Shown here: piece after piece, positions 3,955-48,612 of the stretch
Layout: the number at the start of each line of letters is the position of its first letter
Numbering within the stretch: the first letter of the stretch is position 1
Source of the DNA: a virus
Length of the DNA stretch: 49,329 bases
Direction: 5' to 3' (one strand)
Virus record (IMG/VR): IMGVR_UViG_3300025424_000016
Span: 1-49,329 of that record
Notes under the pieces: model-generated
The model's input: only the letters and a program-made list of their open reading frames with translations
Told to the model about the DNA's origin: nothing
Database searches by the model: none
Position numbers and translations under genes: made by a program

Positions 3955-5279
3955 AAATATTAATCATTGATGCGGGTGGTAATGGATGTTTAGATTTTGC
4001 ATTACGATGCAAAGTTGCTGGACACCAAGTTAAAACATTTATTAGACATCATAAAGACGGATCTCGTAATGAATCTGGTGACGGTATTATTGATCGTGTG
4101 TCTGAATGGGAAAAATATATGAACTGGGCAGACCTTGTGTTCTGTACAGACAATGTATTTTATATACATGGACTAGAACGTTGGAGAGATAAAGGCTATC
4201 CAATTTTTGGACCATCTGTTGACACTACTCGTTGGGAACAAGATCGTGTACATGGTGCTGATGTCATGGAAAAAGCTGGGATTAAAACAATTCCTAGTAC
4301 TAGATTTAGTAAATATGATGAAGCCATAAAACACGTTATAGACAATCCAAAACGTTACGTATCTAAACCTATTGGCGATGGTGCAAAAGCCTTGTCATAC
4401 GTCTCTAAATCAGCCGCAGACATGGTTTACATGCTTCAGTATTGGAAGAAGTGTAACGCATATAAAGGTGAATTTATTCTTCAAGACTTTCATCCTGGAA
4501 TTGAGATGGCTGTTGGTGGTTGGTTTGGTGATTGTGGATTTAGTAAACACTGGTGTGAGAACTGGGAGTTTAAAAAATTCATGAATGATGATTTAGGAGT
4601 TGCAACAGGAGAACAGGGAACTGTTTTACGATATACAGAAGAATCACAGCTAGCTGATTGTGTTCTTAAACCTTTGGAAGATTACTTACATGGACTTAAT
4701 TACACAGGATACATTGATGTTAACTGTATTATTGGTAAAGATGGTACTCCTTGGCCTCTTGAGTTTACTATGCGTCCGGGTTGGCCGTTGTTTCAAATAC
4801 AACAATCGTTGCACAAAGGAGACCCAGCAGAGTGGATGCTTGATCTCATTAATGGAAAAGATACTCTTAAAGTTAAAAGTGAAGTAGCATGCGGTGTTGT
4901 TGTTACTATTCCTGATTATCCATATGGTAATGTAACCAAAAAAGATAACTGTGGATATCCATTATGGGGTATAACAGAAGAAGATGCTGTTAAAGACATA
5001 CATTTTTCTGAAGTACAGATGGGTAAAGCACCTTGTATGGAAGACGGAGAGGTAAAACTTAACGTACCTATGTATGTAACAGCAGGAGATTACATATGCA
5101 CTGTATCTGGAGTTGGAGATACTGTTTGTGAAGCTTCTGAAAAAGCATATAAGACTATAGATAAAAAGATAGAGATACCTAATTCTATAATGTACAGAAC
5201 TGACATTGGTTGTAGGCTTGAGAAACAATTGCCAGAGCTACATAATATGGGTTATTGTTTGGATTTATACTATGAGTAA
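3951..5279 (+). CDS. PurD-like ATP-grasp ligase in the late operon
   Basis: The 442-residue protein has the layout of phosphoribosylamine-glycine ligase. A Rossmann-like N-terminus (MKILIIDAGGNG) is followed by an ATP-grasp. Its nucleotide lysine lies in YVSKPIGDGAK, the conserved hinge is EFILQDFHPGIE, and the metal-binding end reads PLEFTMRPGWP, close to the LEFN.RFGDPE of PurD. Such enzymes activate a carboxylate as acyl phosphate and join it to an amine. No other purine-pathway gene is present, and it sits between an internal virion gene and a fibre gene. It may therefore modify a virion or cell-surface molecule rather than make purines. It overlaps both neighbours by a few bases, so it is co-translated with late proteins. 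Confidence 0.8.
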   Translation: MKILIIDAGGNGCLDFALRCKVAGHQVKTFIRHHKDGSRNESGDGIIDRVSEWEKYMNWADLVFCTDNVFYIHGLERWRDKGYPIFGPSVDTTRWEQDRVHGADVMEKAGIKTIPSTRFSKYDEAIKHVIDNPKRYVSKPIGDGAKALSYVSKSAADMVYMLQYWKKCNAYKGEFILQDFHPGIEMAVGGWFGDCGFSKHWCENWEFKKFMNDDLGVATGEQGTVLRYTEESQLADCVLKPLEDYLHGLNYTGYIDVNCIIGKDGTPWPLEFTMRPGWPLFQIQQSLHKGDPAEWMLDLINGKDTLKVKSEVACGVVVTIPDYPYGNVTKKDNCGYPLWGITEEDAVKDIHFSEVQMGKAPCMEDGEVKLNVPMYVTAGDYICTVSGVGDTVCEASEKAYKTIDKKIEIPNSIMYRTDIGCRLEKQLPELHNMGYCLDLYYE

Positions 5280-6644: not shown

Positions 6645-6676
6645 AAAAAGCCCCGTAAGGGGCTTTCTTTTTATTT
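6645..6676. terminator. bidirectional intrinsic terminator between convergent blocks
   Basis: The hairpin AAAGCCCC-GTAA-GGGGCTTT has a T-rich run on its right and an A-rich run on its left. It can therefore end the rightward late transcript and the leftward early transcript. It sits exactly where the two blocks meet; the last leftward gene stops at 6671, inside its edge. Confidence 0.9.
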
Positions 6677-6826: not shown

Positions 6827-6970
6827 TCATTTCTCCCAATATAACATGACTCTAAATAAACCTAGTTCAAGTATAACTATAAACCAAGTTCCTTGTTCGT
6901 CTTCATAGTTGTCAATGTATTGAATACCAAAACTAATACCATTAATTAGTTCTACGTTGTAAGCTGTCAT
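6827..6970 (-). CDS. small protein, 47 aa, coupled to ribonucleotide reductase
   Basis: The ATG at 6970 overlaps the reductase stop (ATGA), which argues for translational coupling. The protein (MTAYNVELINGIS...) is acidic in the middle and ends with a hydrophobic stretch (WFIVILELGLFRVMLYW) that could be a short membrane or amphipathic segment. I do not recognise the family. It lies between the reductase and the 51-residue gene, with no spare bases on either side. Confidence 0.6.
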   Translation of the reverse strand: MTAYNVELINGISFGIQYIDNYEDEQGTWFIVILELGLFRVMLYWEK

Positions 6971-11404: not shown

Positions 11405-11896
11405 TTATTCTATTTCAGGCATGTCATCAATCATATCAGTAATATTTACTTCTTCTTTGCCGAAGACGTAGTTTTCGAAGGTTTTGGCTGCTTCCAAGAC
11501 ATCACTAATTTTGATGCTTTTAGCACCCACTGATAGAAAACTGATGGCTGCATTGATGTTTGATTGTCTGATGATGTAGAGTTGTTTTGCTGCTCTTTCT
11601 TCAGGCGTTTCGAAGGTTGATTTTGGGCTTGGCGAAGCTGATTGATTCGGTTTTGCTGTTGCTGCGGATGCTCTTGTGGCACTTGTAAATTCCCAGTAGC
11701 CTTTGTCGTTTTTTCCGAGTGTGACTTCATAAATTTCTCCTGGTTTAGCTACAGATAGCGTTGAATATAAATCTTTGTTGGCAAAGCTCATGACATTTTT
11801 CTTTTCAGCTTTACCTTCTGGATTGGTATATTCTACTACTGCTTTGCTATATTTAGCAGTGCGTTCTACATCAACAGAGTTGATTGTTATTTGCAT
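11405..11896 (-). CDS. single-stranded DNA-binding protein-like
   Basis: The 163 residues begin with a beta-rich segment (QITINSVDVERTAKYSKAVVEY) compatible with an OB fold. A Ser, Pro and Ala rich linker follows, then helices and an acidic end (DMIDDMPEIE) like the C-terminal tails of SSB proteins. Its place between DNA polymerase and the 5'-3' exonuclease matches the phage SSB. The sequence is not diagnostic by itself, so the assignment rests on tail and context. It overlaps the polymerase C-half by 26 bases. Confidence 0.7.
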   Translation of the reverse strand: MQITINSVDVERTAKYSKAVVEYTNPEGKAEKKNVMSFANKDLYSTLSVAKPGEIYEVTLGKNDKGYWEFTSATRASAATAKPNQSASPSPKSTFETPEERAAKQLYIIRQSNINAAISFLSVGAKSIKISDVLEAAKTFENYVFGKEEVNITDMIDDMPEIE

Positions 11897-12638
11897 TTTC
11901 TTCCTTTACTTGTTTTAGATATTGTGAATAGTATTCTACTGAGTTATTCATGTTTGGCCCAACAGAACATTCACATTTTAGTGGTATGTTTGGTTTGACT
12001 CCGAACATCCTGTTAAAATTATCAGGCATGTCTGCGAAGCATTCTTCAAACAATTGTACTACAGAATCAACATTGGTTGTAGGTGTATCTACCAATATTG
12101 AATCGTGTATGGTTCCAATTAGTCTAGCATCTATATTTTTCTTTTTTAGACGTTTAAAGAACGATACACGTATAATGGCCATAATGTCATGGCCTGTCCC
12201 TTGGACGGGATGATTAGTTAAAGTAGTCCATGGAATTGCGAGATCTCCACGGAAATCTTTTTTCATATCGAAGAACCACTCTCTGCCTTGCGGTCCACGT
12301 ATGGGCTGTCCTGATGTAACTAGCCTTGCCCATCTTTGATGGGTTGCGTTTAATCCATTGTATTTTGCGAAGAACTTTTCGCCGATGTTCTCCCAGAATT
12401 TTACGGAAGAGCTTGTAGTGGCAAATTCTGGATCTTTTGAGAATGCGTATGCACTTCCACGATATATTGTACGGAACAGATACTTTTTTGCAATTAGTCT
12501 TGATGGTAGTCCGAATGCTTTTTGATTTTCTGTATGCAGATCTAACCCGTCTAATATTTCTTGTATACCTGTTTTGTCTTGAGATAACCATACGGCGGTC
12601 CACCATTCTAATGCTTTTGCATCTGCTTGTATTAACAT
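11871..12638 (-). CDS. DNA polymerase A, C-terminal half (palm and fingers)
   Basis: This 255-residue piece holds all polymerase motifs. Motif A is QADAKALEWW with catalytic D6, motif B is RLIAKKYLFRTIYRGSAYAF, and motif C is TIHDSILVD. It begins only five residues before motif A, and the missing N-terminal part is the separate gene 13139-14251. The start ATG has only a weak AGG nearby, and a perfect sigma70 promoter lies directly upstream (12650-12678). The two pieces must work together to give a full family A polymerase. Motif A has Ala where many enzymes have Tyr or Phe. Confidence 0.93.
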   Translation of the reverse strand: MLIQADAKALEWWTAVWLSQDKTGIQEILDGLDLHTENQKAFGLPSRLIAKKYLFRTIYRGSAYAFSKDPEFATTSSSVKFWENIGEKFFAKYNGLNATHQRWARLVTSGQPIRGPQGREWFFDMKKDFRGDLAIPWTTLTNHPVQGTGHDIMAIIRVSFFKRLKKKNIDARLIGTIHDSILVDTPTTNVDSVVQLFEECFADMPDNFNRMFGVKPNIPLKCECSVGPNMNNSVEYYSQYLKQVKEENANNNQLC

Positions 12639-12831: not shown

Positions 12832-13142
12832 CCCTCACTCGCTTTCTTTAGTATTGCATCAACAATCCAATAACATTGTTCTGTTGTTAAAGTTACTGTT
12901 GTGTTTAATGCACATATCCCAAAAATATTATCTATTTCCTCATCACTTAATTCACGCATTGGGTGTTCATAGAGTGGAATACTCTGCCCTTCTTCTAATT
13001 CAGCAAATGCTATTGGTGGATGGGCGTAAAGGAATTCACCTTTTTTTCTCGTTTTCCAATCACTTCCTGAACCTGAGTCAATATACATATATCCATATCC
13101 ATCGAAGTCATAACGCATTGCCACTGGTTCTCTTGAATTCAT
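12828..13142 (-). CDS. hypothetical protein, 104 aa, inside the polymerase split
   Basis: The start overlaps the stop of the polymerase N-half (ATGA). The protein contains a Y/H-PP-type segment (LYAHPP) and later PMRELSDEEIDNIFG, a layout seen in many small phage proteins of unknown role (HPP...LTDEEI). It has no homing-endonuclease motif (no LAGLIDADG, GIY-YIG or HNH), so it does not explain the polymerase split as a homing element. Together with the 56-residue gene it forms the insertion. Confidence 0.7.
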   Translation of the reverse strand: MNSREPVAMRYDFDGYGYMYIDSGSGSDWKTRKKGEFLYAHPPIAFAELEEGQSIPLYEHPMRELSDEEIDNIFGICALNTTVTLTTEQCYWIVDAILKKASEG

Positions 13143-14251
13143 TTCTCACTCCTAACACATTCTTGTATTTCAGGACACATGTTTTGTAGGTTTGGTTTAG
13201 TACTGGATAATCTACCAGTAGCTGTAGTTACTTGATTAAACTGACCATGTATTTTATTAACAGGCCAATTCATTTCTTTGTTTATACGAATAAAACTTTC
13301 AAAGAATTCTTTAATTTTTGTTAGTTGTGCTAGTTTTAATAACGCATCTACAACTCCTGTTTTGTCTTTTAATTTTTTAAGAACATCTTCTGCTGTTGAA
13401 TACAGATTTTCTTTTTTAAGTTCAGAACCATCGATTGGCTTCACAAGACCAGCCAATTGATGTTCTAGAGTAATGTTCTTGAATTTAGGTTGACCAGCCT
13501 TAGCCCCAGTTTTAAACAGGCCTACAAGTTCTTTTGAGTCTTCTTTAATGATGCCGCCATAAAGAAAAGCAGACAGATGGTCAGGACTGTTAAAGTTGAT
13601 AGGAACATGTGGATATTTAGTTTGTAATTGTGTGATTATTTCTGTTATTTGTTGTTGTATTTTTTCACAGTCTTGTACACATTGATTTAAATCTATAGGC
13701 AAACCATTGTATTCCATTTCTTGTAATGTAAGTAAGTCTTGACAACAAAGATGAATTAGTCGTTTTTGTATTGGTGTCGCTATTTCTTGTTGTTTGTAGT
13801 ACAAGGCTAAGGTTTGTTTGACATCTTGAATATTATATTCAGACAGAATATCCCAAGGAATTTGGTCAGTATCAATGCCTTTATCCCAGTATTCTGTTTT
13901 AACAATGTCTAATTTAGATTCTAGTCCGTATTTTTCTAGAGAATCTTTTAATGATGGATATTTAATACGTTGTCTTGATAGAATAAATTCTGCAAGTTGA
14001 CAATCCCAGACTTTTATGTTGTCAATGTTATAACCACACTTACGCAACCAATGCAGATCAAACTTAATATTAAACCCGACAACAAGTGCCGAGGATTCCA
14101 ATAACTCCTGTAAGTCATCCAATCTAGCAGCTCTAAAACAACAATACCTATCCCCGTCAGTATACCCAATAGAGACCAGACGATTATTGTTATCAAAAGG
14201 ATTTCCTTTGTTACTAATAGTAGTTTCAACATCTAAGCATAACACTTTCAT
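13139..14251 (-). CDS. DNA polymerase A, N-terminal half (3'-5' exonuclease and thumb)
   Basis: The 370 residues from the ATG at 14251 (MKVLCLDVETT) carry the proofreading exonuclease: D7 and E9 in LDVETT, N61...D65 in FNIKFD, Y139...D143 in YNIQD. The polymerase thumb follows, ending with T-G-R-L-S-S-T-K-P-N-L-Q-N (about 345-357). That segment normally comes shortly before motif A. The protein then stops (VRSEK), and motif A begins in the gene at 12638, about 500 bases later. The start was set at the TAATG overlap with the preceding gene; another ATG lies 12 bases upstream. Confidence 0.92.
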   Translation of the reverse strand: MKVLCLDVETTISNKGNPFDNNNRLVSIGYTDGDRYCCFRAARLDDLQELLESSALVVGFNIKFDLHWLRKCGYNIDNIKVWDCQLAEFILSRQRIKYPSLKDSLEKYGLESKLDIVKTEYWDKGIDTDQIPWDILSEYNIQDVKQTLALYYKQQEIATPIQKRLIHLCCQDLLTLQEMEYNGLPIDLNQCVQDCEKIQQQITEIITQLQTKYPHVPINFNSPDHLSAFLYGGIIKEDSKELVGLFKTGAKAGQPKFKNITLEHQLAGLVKPIDGSELKKENLYSTAEDVLKKLKDKTGVVDALLKLAQLTKIKEFFESFIRINKEMNWPVNKIHGQFNQVTTATGRLSSTKPNLQNMCPEIQECVRSEK

Positions 14252-14436
14252 TAATAGTGACAATAGAATACAGGTTGTACTTCAGCAGATATTTGTAATT
14301 CATGTTTTTCATATTCTGCTTGTGCATTTTCTGCATAAGCTTCTGCTTCATCTAATTCAGAAAATACTCTTAAAACATATGGTGGATGGTTTCTGATGAC
14401 AGCCCATGCTGTTTCTGTTTTAAGTGCTGGTTTCAT
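14251..14436 (-). CDS. small hypothetical protein, 61 aa
   Basis: The protein begins MKPALKTETAWAVIRNHPPYVLRVFSE. It has a central Glu and Ala rich helix (ELDEAEAYAENAQAEYEKHE) and ends FYCHY. It lies between the transglycosylase and the polymerase N-half, with overlaps on both sides. I do not recognise a function. Confidence 0.65.
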   Translation of the reverse strand: MKPALKTETAWAVIRNHPPYVLRVFSELDEAEAYAENAQAEYEKHELQISAEVQPVFYCHY

Positions 14437-16161: not shown

Positions 16162-16851
16162 GAAGTATTTTATTTTGTCTGTTGTATACTCTTTAGGATC
16201 AAGATGGGTATAAATGGCTAGAGCAGGTAGACCAATAGATTTAGATCTTGCTACAATGTCTTGACTATTTTTCCATTTGTCACTGTCTAACCACACAATA
16301 ATACTAGTAGCATGGCTTTTTAAACGCATTAAAAGCTCTGTAGAAGCCTCTGAACCGAACAGAGGCATAGCAGAGGAGAGTCTGGCAACTTTAATGGCAC
16401 TGAGAAGGTCTTCTACAAGTATTATAGGTGATTGTTTGTTGCCACAAAAATATAGAATATTATGTATTTTACCTTGACTGAAGTATTTATTTTTTATATT
16501 ATCAGAGAAATTACGTGCTTGCCAAGCAATTAATTCATTTTCTTTATTATAAACAGGAAATATTAATTGTTCTTTTGATTCTGACCATAACATACGATAT
16601 CTAATACGTTCTTGTGGAGTAATATTGTATTTGTCAAGCCAGTCTAAACCTTTTTGATTTATTTGTGTACTTACATCATCAGGTAATTTAATTATTTTTA
16701 TAGAATCATCATTGTCAAGTTTTGGGATATATTTATTATTTTTTTCTGTGTATTTACAACCGAAGCAGTATGCTGAATTGTCATCATATCTACCTAAATT
16801 ATCTTTTGAACCACAATTAGGACATGCTTCGTGTCTTAGGAATGTAGCCAA
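16150..16851 (-). CDS. DNA primase (zinc ribbon plus TOPRIM)
   Basis: It makes RNA primers for lagging-strand synthesis. The zinc ribbon has C10, C13, C29 and C32. The TOPRIM core follows, with E147 in ILVEDLLSA and the D189-S-D191 pair in IVWLDSDK. The 233 residues equal the primase half of T7 gp4. The start codon is TTG at 16851 (reading ATFLRHEACPNC): an in-frame stop lies just upstream and no earlier ATG exists. The final codons contain the -35 of the promoter before the helicase. Confidence 0.9.
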   Translation of the reverse strand: MATFLRHEACPNCGSKDNLGRYDDNSAYCFGCKYTEKNNKYIPKLDNDDSIKIIKLPDDVSTQINQKGLDWLDKYNITPQERIRYRMLWSESKEQLIFPVYNKENELIAWQARNFSDNIKNKYFSQGKIHNILYFCGNKQSPIILVEDLLSAIKVARLSSAMPLFGSEASTELLMRLKSHATSIIVWLDSDKWKNSQDIVARSKSIGLPALAIYTHLDPKEYTTDKIKYFLTN

Positions 16852-24854: not shown

Positions 24855-24893
24855 AAAAAAAAAGCGAAATAGGTCATTATAACCTATTCCGCT
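24855..24893 (-). terminator. intrinsic terminator, leftward
   Basis: On the minus strand a 12-bp stem (AGCGGAATAGGT with ACCTATTTCGCT, one G-U pair) with a 7-base loop is followed by eight or more T. It follows the stop of the gene at 24902 by a few bases. Confidence 0.88.
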
Positions 24894-24901
24894 ATTAAAA
24901 C

Positions 24902-25216
24902 TTAGTAAATTGCTGGTTCGAATTGATTAGCATCTGCAACAGGAGCGGTTGGAGATGGAGTAGTATCAATTGGAGGTTGTTGACGTTGTGCTTTCATTGC
25001 AACTTCTTTGTATCTAGCACGAATATCATCAAGTTCTTCAGATAATTTGATTAAATCATGCATCAAAGGTGATTTGTATTTAATAGCAGAACCAACAACG
25101 TCTGACATTAACTGAGTTACTAGGAATAACTTAAGACCGGCATTTGCTGGTTTCATTACTGCATTGTATGCTTCAAAATTGAAATCGTTACGAATCATTG
25201 TATTGTTAGTTGCCAT
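24902..25216 (-). CDS. early hypothetical protein, 104 aa
   Basis: I start it at the ATG at 25216 (MATNNTMIRND) because the longer frame runs into the upstream terminator hairpin. The protein is mostly helical (LKLFLVTQLMSDVVG, IKLSEELDDIRARYKEVAMKAQRQ) with a Pro and Thr rich tail. It is flanked by intrinsic terminators on both sides, so its expression may be set separately. The function is unknown. Confidence 0.65.
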   Translation of the reverse strand: MATNNTMIRNDFNFEAYNAVMKPANAGLKLFLVTQLMSDVVGSAIKYKSPLMHDLIKLSEELDDIRARYKEVAMKAQRQQPPIDTTPSPTAPVADANQFEPAIY

Positions 25217-25244
25217 GATATATATCTTTCTATAAAAAGTTAAA

Positions 25245-25292
25245 AAATTAAAAGGAAACACGCCCCGCACCAAGCGGTCGGGCGTGCTTTCC
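25245..25292 (-). terminator. intrinsic terminator, leftward, GC-rich
   Basis: GGAAA-CACGCCC pairs with GGGCGTG-C-TTTCC (one bulged C), about 12 bp, with a smaller inner stem. On the minus strand it is followed by a T-rich run at about 25240-25253. It ends the transcript of the gene at 25300. Confidence 0.85.
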
Positions 25293-25756: not shown

Positions 25757-25846
25757 TTAAGAATTAGAGAAAATAACAAAGAAAGAATAATAACCAACTG
25801 CAATTGCAAATATTGTTGCCAATATGTAATCAATAAACGTATTCAT
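25757..25846 (-). CDS. tiny single-span membrane peptide, 29 aa
   Basis: The frame MNTFIDYILATIFAIAVGYY continues SFFVIFSNS. It is one hydrophobic helix with AAAGG upstream of the ATG, and it ends 16 bases before the next start. It would be the first product of the leftward block. Small membrane peptides are common in early phage regions. Hydrophobicity and the ribosome binding site support it, not homology. Confidence 0.5.
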   Translation of the reverse strand: MNTFIDYILATIFAIAVGYYSFFVIFSNS

Positions 25847-26410
25847 ATATTGCCTTTCGTATTAAATGTAAAAAGAATGTGTGCTACATACTACGGTTTT
25901 CAGATTAATCGACGGCAACGAGGACGTCAAGGACAAGCGAAGCGAAGAAGGAACTAGCAGGACATAGATGACTTGTCATCGCATTGTCTGCTTGTGACTG
26001 ATCCTTGAACCGCAAGTTGACTAGATTATGATAGAAAATCCGTGTGTAGCCCATAGTATTAGAAGGAATATATGAGCCAAGCGATCTGAATAAACTGTAT
26101 CGATTTACATACTAAAGTATATATCAGGTGGATGATGTAAGTTATTGATTTGATTTGATGTGCAAATATCCCCTCATTTAAAAGATCTTACCGTGTTTTA
26201 ACGACAGTTAACAACAGATAACGTAAGATAGGGGGGAGTAGTATATAGTAGTATACCTATATAATATATTAGAAGGAGGGAGGGGGTAAATTTAATTTTA
26301 TAAAAAATTAGGTTATACCACCTTACTATATTTTTTATAATTTTTAAAACAAAGGGGGGATACAAGGTCTACAATCAATTTATTTAAGTTTTAATGGTTA
26401 GGTATTACTA
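25847..26410. other. non-coding region with a nested inverted-repeat element at 25926-26010
   Basis: No ORF longer than about 11 codons is seen on either strand. TCAAGGA (25927-25933) pairs with TCCTTGA (26002-26008), ACAAGC (25933-25938) with GCTTGT (25990-25995), and GATGAC (25967-25972) with GTCATC (25975-25980). They are nested, giving a long branched hairpin. The rest has G-rich runs (26231-26236, 26272-26286, 26353-26359) and AT-rich parts. It may be a leader RNA, an origin or a protein site. AGAAGGAATATATG at about 26061 starts only a 5-codon frame. Confidence 0.45.
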
Positions 26411-26437
26411 GATAATAAAAAAGGCCCCTAAGGGCCT
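26411..26437 (-). terminator. intrinsic terminator about 190 bases after the leftward promoter
   Basis: On the minus strand AGGCCC-TTAG-GGGCCT is followed by six T and a further T-rich part. It faces leftward transcription only and lies between the leftward promoter (26621-26649) and the first leftward gene. Confidence 0.85.
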
Positions 26438-26614
26438 CTATTCACGTTTAAATGGTATTCTGTGATCTGGTCTCCCCACACTTCGTTCTTACGGGGTCGA
26501 CGACTGTCTTCTTTGTTACACAGTCTACTATATTAATATATTTAATATATATATAATATATATAATATAATAATAATAAATAATAAATAATAATATATAT
26601 AATATATATTAATA
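26411..26614 (-). ncRNA. putative short leader RNA of about 200 nt between promoter and terminator
   Basis: A transcript starting about seven bases after the leftward -10 would end at the terminator. Its first 85 or so bases would be only A and U; the 3' part has GACTGT pairing with ACAGTC, and CCCC...GGGG. It contains no ORF. It could be a true small RNA or an attenuated leader. Confidence 0.4.
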
Positions 26615-26627
26615 TATTTTATTATAT
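26529..26627. other. 99-bp tract with only A and T (possible origin unwinding element)
   Basis: From 26529 to 26627 there is no G or C; it is mainly alternating TA, ATA and TAA steps. It lies between the divergent promoters and the terminator and contains the leftward -10. Such tracts melt easily and are common at replication origins and promoters. Origin function is inferred from position only. Confidence 0.5.
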
Positions 26628-26649
26628 CATACTTTGTTAATATTGTCAA
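26621..26649 (-). promoter_or_regulatory. perfect sigma70 promoter, leftward (PL)
   Basis: On the minus strand TTGACA (26644-26649), 17 bases, TATAAT (26621-26626). It faces the early block and is back to back with the rightward promoter. Confidence 0.87.
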
Positions 26650-26705: not shown

Positions 26706-26734
26706 TTGACAAATGATTAAAAGTATGGTATAAT
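26706..26734 (+). promoter_or_regulatory. perfect sigma70 promoter, rightward (PR)
   Basis: TTGACA (26706-26711), 17 bases, TATAAT (26729-26734). The start of transcription would be near 26741, giving a leader of about 24 bases with AAGGA at 26753-26757 before the ATG at 26765. It drives packaging and head genes with host RNA polymerase. Confidence 0.9.
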
Positions 26735-26764: not shown

Positions 26765-27349
26765 ATGGATGATTCAAGTAAAGCATCAGTTAACAATTTA
26801 AGTAATGCTCCTAAACGTAGACGTGCTGTAAACAAGACAGGTAAACATTGGTCTCAACAACAAAAGATTGAAACAGTACTTACATATCTTGCTACGGGCA
26901 GTGAAGTAAAAACGTCGGCTGCTACAGGTGTACCTAAGGCTACTTTGCATATCTGGAGATATCAGCCTTGGTGGAAAGAACTTGTTAGACAACTTCAAGA
27001 AGAGCAAGACGATGCAATTAATGCAGATGTAGCTAAGATTATTGAAAAAAGTATGGCTACTGTTGCTGACAGACTTGAAAACGGTGATTTTGGGTTTAAC
27101 CAAAAAACTGGCGAGATATTCCGTAAACCTGTTAACCTTAGGGATGCCCATAAAGTTGCTGTTGATATGATTGACAAACGTAACTTGTTAAACGGCAAAC
27201 CAACTTCTAGAACTGAAACAAGTAGTGCAAATAACCAGCTTGAGTTTCTTGCTAAGAAATTCGCAGAGTTTGCATCTATGACCAAACAAGATTTAAAACA
27301 CGCTATCAATCAAGATGAAATTATAGACGTGGAAGTAAATGAAGAATGA
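26765..27349 (+). CDS. terminase small subunit-like DNA-binding protein
   Basis: The 194 residues have a basic start (KRRRAVNKTGKHW). A helix-turn-helix follows (QQKIETVLTYLATGSEVKTSAATGVPKATLHIWR) of the kind used by small terminases to bind pac or cos DNA. Next come a long helical region and an acidic tail (DEIIDVEVNEE). It is the first gene of the rightward block and overlaps the large terminase start by four bases, which supports the role. Confidence 0.82.
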   Translation: MDDSSKASVNNLSNAPKRRRAVNKTGKHWSQQQKIETVLTYLATGSEVKTSAATGVPKATLHIWRYQPWWKELVRQLQEEQDDAINADVAKIIEKSMATVADRLENGDFGFNQKTGEIFRKPVNLRDAHKVAVDMIDKRNLLNGKPTSRTETSSANNQLEFLAKKFAEFASMTKQDLKHAINQDEIIDVEVNEE

Positions 27350-46637: not shown

Positions 46638-48103
46638 TGGCACAAGACAGAGTTCCTTTTACTCAACCAATAGAAACACGTGATGGTACATTAACTAAAG
46701 ATGCTAAAACATACAATGGTTATTTTGAAGCTCGTGAAACTAAACGTGAGTTTGTAAAACGTCCAGGATTATTGGCTGTTGGAGCTTCTTTACCTGCAGG
46801 TATAGCACAAGGGTTAACATACTTTAATGGTTATCTTTATGCTGTAGTTAACAATGTAGTATATAAAATAGATCCAACAACGTATGCAACAACAACTGTA
46901 GGTACTATGACTGGTACTGTAAATGGTTCTGTAGCTACTTGTTATTTTTCACAAACACTTAATGCAACATATTTGTTTTTACATAATCAAGTTAATGGTT
47001 ATTTAGTTAATGGAAGTACTGGTGCTTTTACATCTGTAACATTTCCATTTAGTGGAATTAATATAGTCCCAGGTGCTGTGTTTATTGATACATATATTGG
47101 TGTTGGATTACCAAATGGTCGTGTGTATACATCGGATCCAAACGATCCAACAAGTTGGAATGCTTTAGATTATCTTACAGCACAACAACAACCAGATAAT
47201 CTTGTAGGTATAGGTAGACACCTTAACTATGTTATTTCTTTTGGTCAATGGTCTACTGAATTTTTTTATGATGCAGCTAATTCAGCTGGATCTCCACTTA
47301 GTCCTGCTAGTACATATACTATAGAACTAGGTTGTGCTAATGGTGATTCAATTGTTTCTTTTGAACAAACTATTGTTTGGATAGGTACATCACTTACTGT
47401 TGGTACTGGAGTTTATCTTATTGATGGTGTAACACCAAATAGAGTATCTACTCCACACATAGATAGAATTATTAACAACAGTAATTTACAAAATGTTAAA
47501 GCATATTCAATGAAGATTAATGGTCATATGTTATATGTATTAACAATGATTGACATTAATAAAACAGTAGTGTATGATTTAAATGAACAGCAATGGTATG
47601 TGTGGACATCATTTGCTGCAGGTACATCTACATATGGTAATGCTGGTATTTATGCAGAGCAGTTTTTTAAACCAACATTCTTTGCTGGTAACGGATTAAA
47701 CTATTTTGTACTTGATTATGATTCTGGTACTTTGTATTTAATTAATGATCTGTATTATACTGATAATGGTGCTCCTATTTATTACAGGATTGTTACAGAA
47801 AATATAGATAGCAATACAACTAAACGTAAGTTCTACAGTCGTGCTGAAGTAATTGGTGATAAGATTCCAGCAGTGATGATGATACGTCATTCTAGTGATG
47901 ATTACAGAACATGGTCTAGTTATAGGTCTGTAGATCTATCTAGAGACAGACCACAGATTACAGCATGTGGATCTGGTCGTAGACGTGCTTGGGAATTCTT
48001 GTGTACAGAACCACAACCACTAAGATTAGATGCTGTTGAAGTTGAATACACTGTTGGTGGATTAGAAAATGAAGGTTTAATGCCTACTCATTATAGGAAA
48101 TAA
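46637..48103 (+). CDS. tail hub protein, P22 gp10 / packaged DNA stabilisation-like
   Basis: The 488 residues have an early TRDGTLTKDAKTYNGYFEAR...VKRPGLLAVGASLPAGIAQGLTYFNGYLYAVVNNVVYKID. WD- or kelch-like beta rungs follow (TYLFLHNQVNGYLVN, NYVISFGQWSTEFFYD). This sequence pattern is the podovirus tail hub that follows the gp4-like adaptor. It binds spikes and closes the tail tube. The start overlaps the adaptor stop (TAATG). Confidence 0.88.
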   Translation: MAQDRVPFTQPIETRDGTLTKDAKTYNGYFEARETKREFVKRPGLLAVGASLPAGIAQGLTYFNGYLYAVVNNVVYKIDPTTYATTTVGTMTGTVNGSVATCYFSQTLNATYLFLHNQVNGYLVNGSTGAFTSVTFPFSGINIVPGAVFIDTYIGVGLPNGRVYTSDPNDPTSWNALDYLTAQQQPDNLVGIGRHLNYVISFGQWSTEFFYDAANSAGSPLSPASTYTIELGCANGDSIVSFEQTIVWIGTSLTVGTGVYLIDGVTPNRVSTPHIDRIINNSNLQNVKAYSMKINGHMLYVLTMIDINKTVVYDLNEQQWYVWTSFAAGTSTYGNAGIYAEQFFKPTFFAGNGLNYFVLDYDSGTLYLINDLYYTDNGAPIYYRIVTENIDSNTTKRKFYSRAEVIGDKIPAVMMIRHSSDDYRTWSSYRSVDLSRDRPQITACGSGRRRAWEFLCTEPQPLRLDAVEVEYTVGGLENEGLMPTHYRK

Positions 48104-48105
48104 TT

Positions 48106-48612
48106 ATGGAATTAGTTGATAACAGTATTGAAAAAGTTACATTTAGAGAAAATGTTTTAAAGGTACAAGAAGTATTATCAGCATTAATTGAAAACAATGA
48201 ATTGCCAAATAAAAAAGATGATTGTCTTTTAACACATTATTATACTCCTATAGATAAAACTTATGGTTGTGGAACATATGCTCGCCAAATGTTTATTCCT
48301 AAAGGCACTTTAATTATTGGAAAGATACATAGACATCAACATCTTAATTTTATAATGCAAGGTAAAGTATCTGTATCTACAGAATTTGGTATAAAGTATT
48401 TAGAAGCTCCTTGTGTATTTGTATCTGAAGCAGGACTTAAAAGAGCTGTTGTTGCTGAAGAAGATACTATATGGGTTACTGTTCATTTAACAAAACACTT
48501 AGGTGAAGAAAATTTAGACAAAATGGAAGAAGAAGTTATTGCTCCTGAATATAAAGATTTAGGTTTAATATCTTCTACACAAGAATTAATTAAATTAAAT
48601 GGAGAAGTATAA
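48106..48612 (+). CDS. cupin-fold protein in the tail operon, 168 aa
   Basis: At about 60-125 a cupin-like pattern is seen: MFIPKGTLIIGKIHRHQHLNFIMQGKVSVSTEFG...LEAPCVFVSEAGLKRAVVAEEDTIWVTVH, with GK-I-H-R-H as the metal-type His pair. Cupins bind metals and small molecules or serve as structural parts. In other phages a similar gene follows the tail hub, with unknown role. It may be a virion part rather than an enzyme. It begins two bases after the previous stop. Confidence 0.7.
   Translation: MELVDNSIEKVTFRENVLKVQEVLSALIENNELPNKKDDCLLTHYYTPIDKTYGCGTYARQMFIPKGTLIIGKIHRHQHLNFIMQGKVSVSTEFGIKYLEAPCVFVSEAGLKRAVVAEEDTIWVTVHLTKHLGEENLDKMEEEVIAPEYKDLGLISSTQELIKLNGEV

Follow-up and report, generated by a model that had tools for sequence, protein, structure and literature searches.

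The stretch of DNA analysed here, referred to as the window, is a 49,329-bp IMG/VR virus record, and the element examined lies at positions 26411-26614 (Table 1). It is preceded by a leftward promoter, TTGACA-17-TATAAT, which matches at 12 of 12 positions and carries a TG before the −10; only four such 12/12 sites were found between positions 6900 and 26800, this one, with a transcription start expected at about 26614, being among them. The promoter is conserved in the relatives L018, L004, L016, L009, L063 and L066, and takes the form TTGACA-17-TTAAAAT in marine relatives. A divergent rightward promoter leads into a putative TerS gene (26765-27349), and in two relatives, L034 (4832-5156) and L102 (4898-4972), the rightward half of this divergent region carries tRNA genes (Pro, Leu, Asp, Tyr; Trp). 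As a second contig (L003/L064) matches the window without any difference over 1546 bp (100% identity), an assembly error is unlikely.

The original prediction for this region was a promoter-to-terminator unit giving an RNA of roughly 200 nt without an ORF, and all of its parts could be located at 26411-26614. The strong leftward promoter is the 12/12 site described above, the A/U-only 5' part corresponds to a strand composed of A and T only from 26627 to 26529, and the structured 3' part contains two adjacent stem-loops; the predicted RNA folded better than 200 of 200 shuffled sequences (z = −3.6, and −3.0 when only the 3' part was folded). The strong leftward terminator was recovered as the AGAGGCCCUUAGGGGCCUUU stem with its U-rich tail, one of three that satisfy a strict definition in the leftward operon, 6600-26614 (at 26439, at 24893 and at the operon end, 6665), compared with 0.00 in shuffles. 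A bidirectional terminator is present at 6647-6665, where the leftward and rightward operons converge. No ORF of at least 20 aa lies within the predicted RNA on its own strand, which rules out a hidden ORF of that size; the sole leftward ORF overlapping the RNA begins upstream, at the −35.

The unit as such, however, is not what has been conserved. The terminator at 26420-26439 is specific to the window's species and was missing in all relatives checked (L018, L004, L016, L009, L063 and L015). In L018, the nearest distinct relative, with 76% identity over this region, the site of the terminator is occupied by GGGCCCTACAAGGCC / GGGCCCTACAAGGCCATAACA and has no U-run, whereas the promoter, the A/T tract and a GUCGACCCC...GGGGAGAC hairpin are all retained; stem-loop 1 is kept only in part. 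The conserved leader reaches past this terminator to at least about 26136. The ∼200-base RNA thus forms only the first part of a long untranslated leader, structured and standing ahead of the early genes in a broad family of aquatic phages, which in the window would measure ∼770 nt up to the first candidate ORF. Four conserved blocks follow the terminator (Table 1), of which ATCAATAACTTACA, when up to three mismatches are allowed, recurs in 16 of the 26 leaders at about 280-600 nt past the A/T tract. C exceeded G in all 26 leaders counted, with near parity in two, and such a C-rich, G-poor leader would be rut-like and prone to Rho. Some leaders also carry repeats. Inverted repeats of the type GTTGTATAAAAACAAC occur in L009 and L016 in three copies 42 nt apart, and L009, L016 and L063 have a similar repeat, GTTGTAAAAAAACAAC, after their copy of the conserved small early gene; these are possible operator or initiator sites. 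The leader region of L038 contains an iteron-like tandem array of 12-bp units (∼9 copies of GGGTTTTAGAAA, 4593-4698).

Table 1. Features of the leftward early region of the window, listed from the divergent promoter in the direction of leftward transcription.
Feature	Coordinates	Strand	Basis
Divergent rightward promoter, 12/12, into putative TerS gene	26706..26734	+	promoter match
Leftward early promoter, extended −10 (TG)	26621..26649	−	12/12 match and conservation in relatives
A/T-only tract, 99 bp, includes −10; A/U-only 5' end of leader	26529..26627	−	composition
Stem-loop 1, GACUGU...ACAGUC	26502..26525	−	fold prediction
Stem-loop 2, tandem-GA hairpin GUC-GA-CCC-loop-GGG-GA-GAC, family-wide motif	26470..26501	−	motif scan, comparison
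Intrinsic terminator inside leader, AGAGGCCCUUAGGGGCCUUU; stem 26439-26420 and U-rich tail	26413..26439	−	strict terminator scan
Conserved leader block TATCCCCCCTT	26352..26362	−	comparison with relatives
Conserved leader block AAAAATTATAWAAAWTATAGKAWNGTG	26318..26345	−	comparison with relatives
C-rich leader block, family form TTTTCCCCCACCCCC	26275..26290	−	comparison with relatives
Conserved 14-nt leader block ATCAATAACTTACA	26136..26149	−	comparison with relatives
First candidate leftward ORF after leader, 29 aa, hydrophobic	25757..25846	−	ORF list
Small leftward early gene shared by 9 phages, immediately ahead of next terminator	24902..25273	−	comparison
Strong intrinsic terminator in early operon, 14 pairs, T8 tail, tL1-like position	24863..24893	−	strict terminator scan

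Relatives were gathered by a TerL search, which yielded 61 related loci, and more distant loci were fetched later as validation. Down to ∼47% TerL identity, the order of a sigma-70 promoter, an A/T tract of 40-195 nt and a small hairpin was conserved, and an A/T tract of at least 40 bp begins at the promoter in 39 loci. The hairpin, represented in the window by stem-loop 2, has the architecture stem-GA-stem-loop-stem-GA-stem with a symmetric tandem G·A internal loop; in many relatives the scan found just one such GA hairpin. The window form is GUC-GA-CCC/GGG-GA-GAC, and the corresponding forms are UGC-GA-CCC-gcga-GGG-GA-GCA in L066 (Alcaligenes phage QDWS535), GACC-GA-GGAC/GUCC-GA-GGUC in L065, GC-GA-GGUC/GACC-GA-GC in L029 and GACU-GA-GGAC-guaa-GUCC-GA-AGUC in later-fetched phages with a TerL about 47-49% identical to the query. 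In the first leader set the GA hairpin occurred 15 times in 12 of 21 phages, compared with 0.12 in dinucleotide shuffles, and when all 256 combinations of 2x2 internal loops were compared, GA/GA was the commonest (15 matches in 12 phages), the next reaching 6 in 6. When the sole criterion for a leader was an A/T tract of 40 bp or more, the hairpin was present in 16 of 21 discovery leaders (shuffle mean 0.06) and 12 of 18 later-fetched ones (0.02), the loci inside each set being partly related and the counts thus not fully independent; the opposite strand gave one and none, respectively. As GA/GA is found almost exclusively on the transcript strand, RNA, or single-stranded DNA of that strand, is likely to be the functional form.

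Covariation in related phages, the check proposed along with the original prediction, was carried out and proved positive: both helices of the GA hairpin covary while GA/GA stays unchanged, with double changes in five of six pairs and a score of 0.521 as against 0.129 for shuffled and at most 0.079 for slid alignments. Because MAFFT misplaced long-loop hairpins, equal-length members and a covariance model were used; the best matches of the model, built from six such members, fall in leaders, six of its matches being its own seeds. The covariation alignment leans on structure, so the main weight of evidence lies with the shuffle and validation tests; likewise, the motif scan demands Watson-Crick pairs, so that hand counts of pair types are descriptive only. 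Independent support for the pairing came from the orthologous positions of L133 and L135, which fail the scan and have the outer pairing GACG/CGUC in place of GACU/AGUC. When the marine variant was searched in IMG/VR without any context, 10 contigs matched, and in all 10 the match lay after a TTGACA-17-TTAAAAT promoter and ∼100 nt of 96-99% A/T. A degenerate promoter-plus-CGNCGACCCC pattern was rejected as a marker, as it retrieved six unrelated IMG/VR matches besides family members. Overlapping GA hairpins that share one arm (A-B-A'), and could thus form two mutually exclusive pairings, were seen in L018, L065, L094 and L130, and the marine leaders contain a similar third segment, GAC-GA-GGAC.

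Searches of Rfam 15 at the gathering score gave no leader match in the window, L125, L066, L029, L102 or L130, sub-threshold matches to Atu_C8 and STnc460 being judged due to chance. Leader DNA did not match named phages, the only two short matches lying inside the putative terS, and the tandem-GA leader motif was not found in the non-subscription literature searched. Thus, the hairpin is apparently uncatalogued in Rfam 15. In marine relatives a helix flanked by tandem G·A (CUGA-GGAC-GUAA-GUCC-GAAG) resembles the GA-flanked stem II of the hammerhead ribozyme, but here the outer strands pair together and do not form a hammerhead core; Rfam ribozyme families gave no match in the leaders.

In order to describe what the polymerase would meet further on, terminators were surveyed under a strict definition in 25 phages, covering 104 kb after the A/T tract. 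Twenty leftward terminators were detected in 15 of the 25, mostly 0.7-1.9 kb past the tract, compared with 2 on the opposite strand and 0.2 in shuffles, and in 13 of these 15 phages no promoter of at least 11/12 was present in the stretch scanned. The remaining 10 phages had no strict leftward terminator within it. In the window, the early-operon terminator directly follows a small gene, and several phages have a terminator at once after the homologous gene. The protein it encodes belongs to no Pfam family, has no relative in named phages and is near neutral (14 K+R, 12 D+E), and the gene is not family-wide; an N-like arginine-rich protein was not found between the site and the first terminator. 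The first early genes as a whole are not conserved across the family. The next promoters of at least 11/12 past the window's terminator lie only at 16718 and 16161, so the amidoligase cluster depends on read-through or weak promoters. In QDWS535 (vB_Af_QDWS535, a phage of Alcaligenes faecalis), the leader lies on the minus strand at about 47600-48600, the first early gene is followed by two terminators in tandem (46864 and 46819), and a promoter of at least 11/12 does not recur until 31926. Elsewhere in the window, the family-A DNA polymerase is divided between two ORFs, 13139-14263 and 11871-12638, the second of which has a 12/12 promoter (12678-12650) immediately ahead of it.

The locus, therefore, has an early promoter, a conserved, covarying and strand-specific hairpin, and downstream terminators with no strong promoter soon after. 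The best, albeit tentative, reading is that of a put/nut-like antitermination leader, a function that we infer from the sequence together with transcription itself and the persistence of the RNA on the polymerase. Among the three roles originally proposed, an attenuated leader needing antitermination is the best supported, by the covarying hairpin and by strong leftward terminators beyond which most genes have no strong promoter to rescue them. Most likely, the tandem-GA hairpin helps the host RNA polymerase to ignore stop signals further on. Host polymerase would start at about 26614 and copy the A/U-only stretch and then the structured element with the hairpin as its core; while still nascent, this element would stay on the polymerase, either unaided or assisted by a factor from host or phage, and render it resistant to termination. 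The polymerase would then pass the leader terminator, the long untranslated, Rho-prone leader and the terminator at 24863-24893, and delayed early genes, i.e. the amidoligase cluster and beyond, would be expressed. As a search of the neighbouring genes revealed no conserved basic protein, our interpretation leans towards antitermination by the RNA alone or with a host factor. Antitermination would explain why an RNA structure is kept directly after an early promoter and why terminators are tolerated, and might explain how a long C-rich untranslated leader escapes Rho. Against it speak the ten phages without a strict terminator in the stretch scanned, the possibilities that terminators simply set gene dosage through partial read-through and that weak promoters serve the downstream genes, and the A/T tract and downstream DNA blocks, which it leaves unexplained.

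The PL-nutL-N-tL1 region of lambda is laid out as a promoter, an RNA hairpin, a small early gene with a terminator directly after it, and the rest of the operon. The window likewise has the order PL, site, small gene, terminator and operon, a likeness to both lambda and HK022; however, the family hairpin is not boxB-like, no boxA was noticed, and the protein of the conserved gene ahead of the terminator lacks the arginine-richness of N. In HK022, the put RNA is formed just after PL and contains non-canonical G-A pairs (PMC9378689). RNAs of this type suppress both intrinsic and Rho-dependent termination in cis without a phage protein, via the zinc-binding domain of the RNA polymerase β' subunit. 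The GA hairpin is similar to putL and putR in being an RNA hairpin of the transcript strand just downstream of a leftward early promoter, with terminators further on, and in needing, in principle, no conserved phage antitermination protein. It differs in that put, found in lambdoid phages at both PL and PR, is ∼70 nt long with two stem-loops and a triplex, whereas the family described here has one or more small symmetric tandem-GA hairpins, often a single one, after a 40-195 nt A/T tract, on the leftward side only and in lytic-type aquatic phages; this difference in size and form also weighs against antitermination. As no sequence or Rfam relationship to put was found, the A/T tract is present and the hairpin is different, the leader was not filed as a put or nut member and is best called a variant of phage early leader RNAs.

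The main rival is a replication origin, which we regard as unlikely but a serious contender. Transcription from the promoter would cross an unwinding element made up of A/T only and leave behind an R-loop or, as in the primer role originally proposed, an RNA that primes replication, and the hairpins and DNA blocks (the A/T block, a C-rich/G-rich block, ATCAATAACTTACA and lineage-specific repeats) would be origin elements. The T7 primary origin and the promoter-DUE origins of T4 have a promoter followed by an A/T-rich stretch, the transcript of which could prime replication. The same applies to ColE1 RNA II, and transcription-driven origins have been described for lambda and ColE1 (PMC5043065). 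Unlike in T7, T4 and ColE1, the promoter here is of the host sigma-70 type with a structured RNA predicted downstream. The A/T-only tract of the window is a possible unwinding element, placed directly after the promoter as in the other loci of this kind, and together with the DNA-like blocks it is better explained by an origin than by antitermination. Further conserved non-coding blocks in the leaders, repeat arrays in some relatives, such as the 12-bp units of L038, and the DnaB-like helicase, split family-A polymerase and 5'-3' exonuclease encoded by the phage also fit an origin. Cumulative GC skew turns near 25 kb, but gene orientation changes there as well and confounds it. The restriction of the covarying GA hairpins to one strand points to RNA and not to duplex DNA, and no initiator or common iteron was identified. 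An origin and antitermination may both be true together.

Three other explanations were weighed. A 5'-UTR element for mRNA stability, processing or autoregulation, with the A/U stretch as a site of cleavage or binding and the GA hairpin either shielding the early mRNA or binding a translation-controlling phage or host protein, would suit a long A/U-rich single strand followed by a stable hairpin, and the alternative A-B-A' hairpins could act as a switch; with the hairpin ∼620 nt from the window's first candidate ORF and first genes varying across the family, we consider it distinctly unlikely. A discrete phage sRNA was among the roles originally proposed; that such an RNA of ∼200 nt ends at 26413 and acts in trans is improbable: promoter and strict terminator frame it in the window and the fold favours it, but in the nearest relatives the promoter, tract and hairpin remain while the terminator at its 3' end is absent, and the weak Rfam sRNA match is far below the cut-off. 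Least probable is a cos/pac packaging signal, with the blocks as terminase sites and the hairpins incidental. The region lies about 0.4-0.6 kb upstream of the putative terS, and in one relative (L068) the 49.5-kb contig stops near the C-rich block, but contig breaks at C-runs are common and strand-specific tandem-GA hairpins after a promoter would be left unexplained.

Very few phages are, to our knowledge, known to antiterminate by RNA alone. A broader proposal, plausible yet doubtful, is that a tandem-GA hairpin after a promoter and A/T tract defines an undescribed family of cis-acting phage RNAs. Such RNAs would program host RNA polymerase for processive antitermination with no phage protein devoted to the task, would have evolved separately from lambdoid put, and would be widespread among uncultured phages of fresh and marine waters. 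If antitermination is true, the leader would offer a second system for testing how RNA polymerase is reprogrammed by a nascent RNA; should it instead be an origin, it would supply the replication origin of the phage family. On either reading it is a compact, testable and apparently uncatalogued RNA motif, and Alcaligenes phage QDWS535 provides a cultured representative of this widespread aquatic phage family, in which early control in lytic-type phages without a polymerase of their own may rest on leader RNA.
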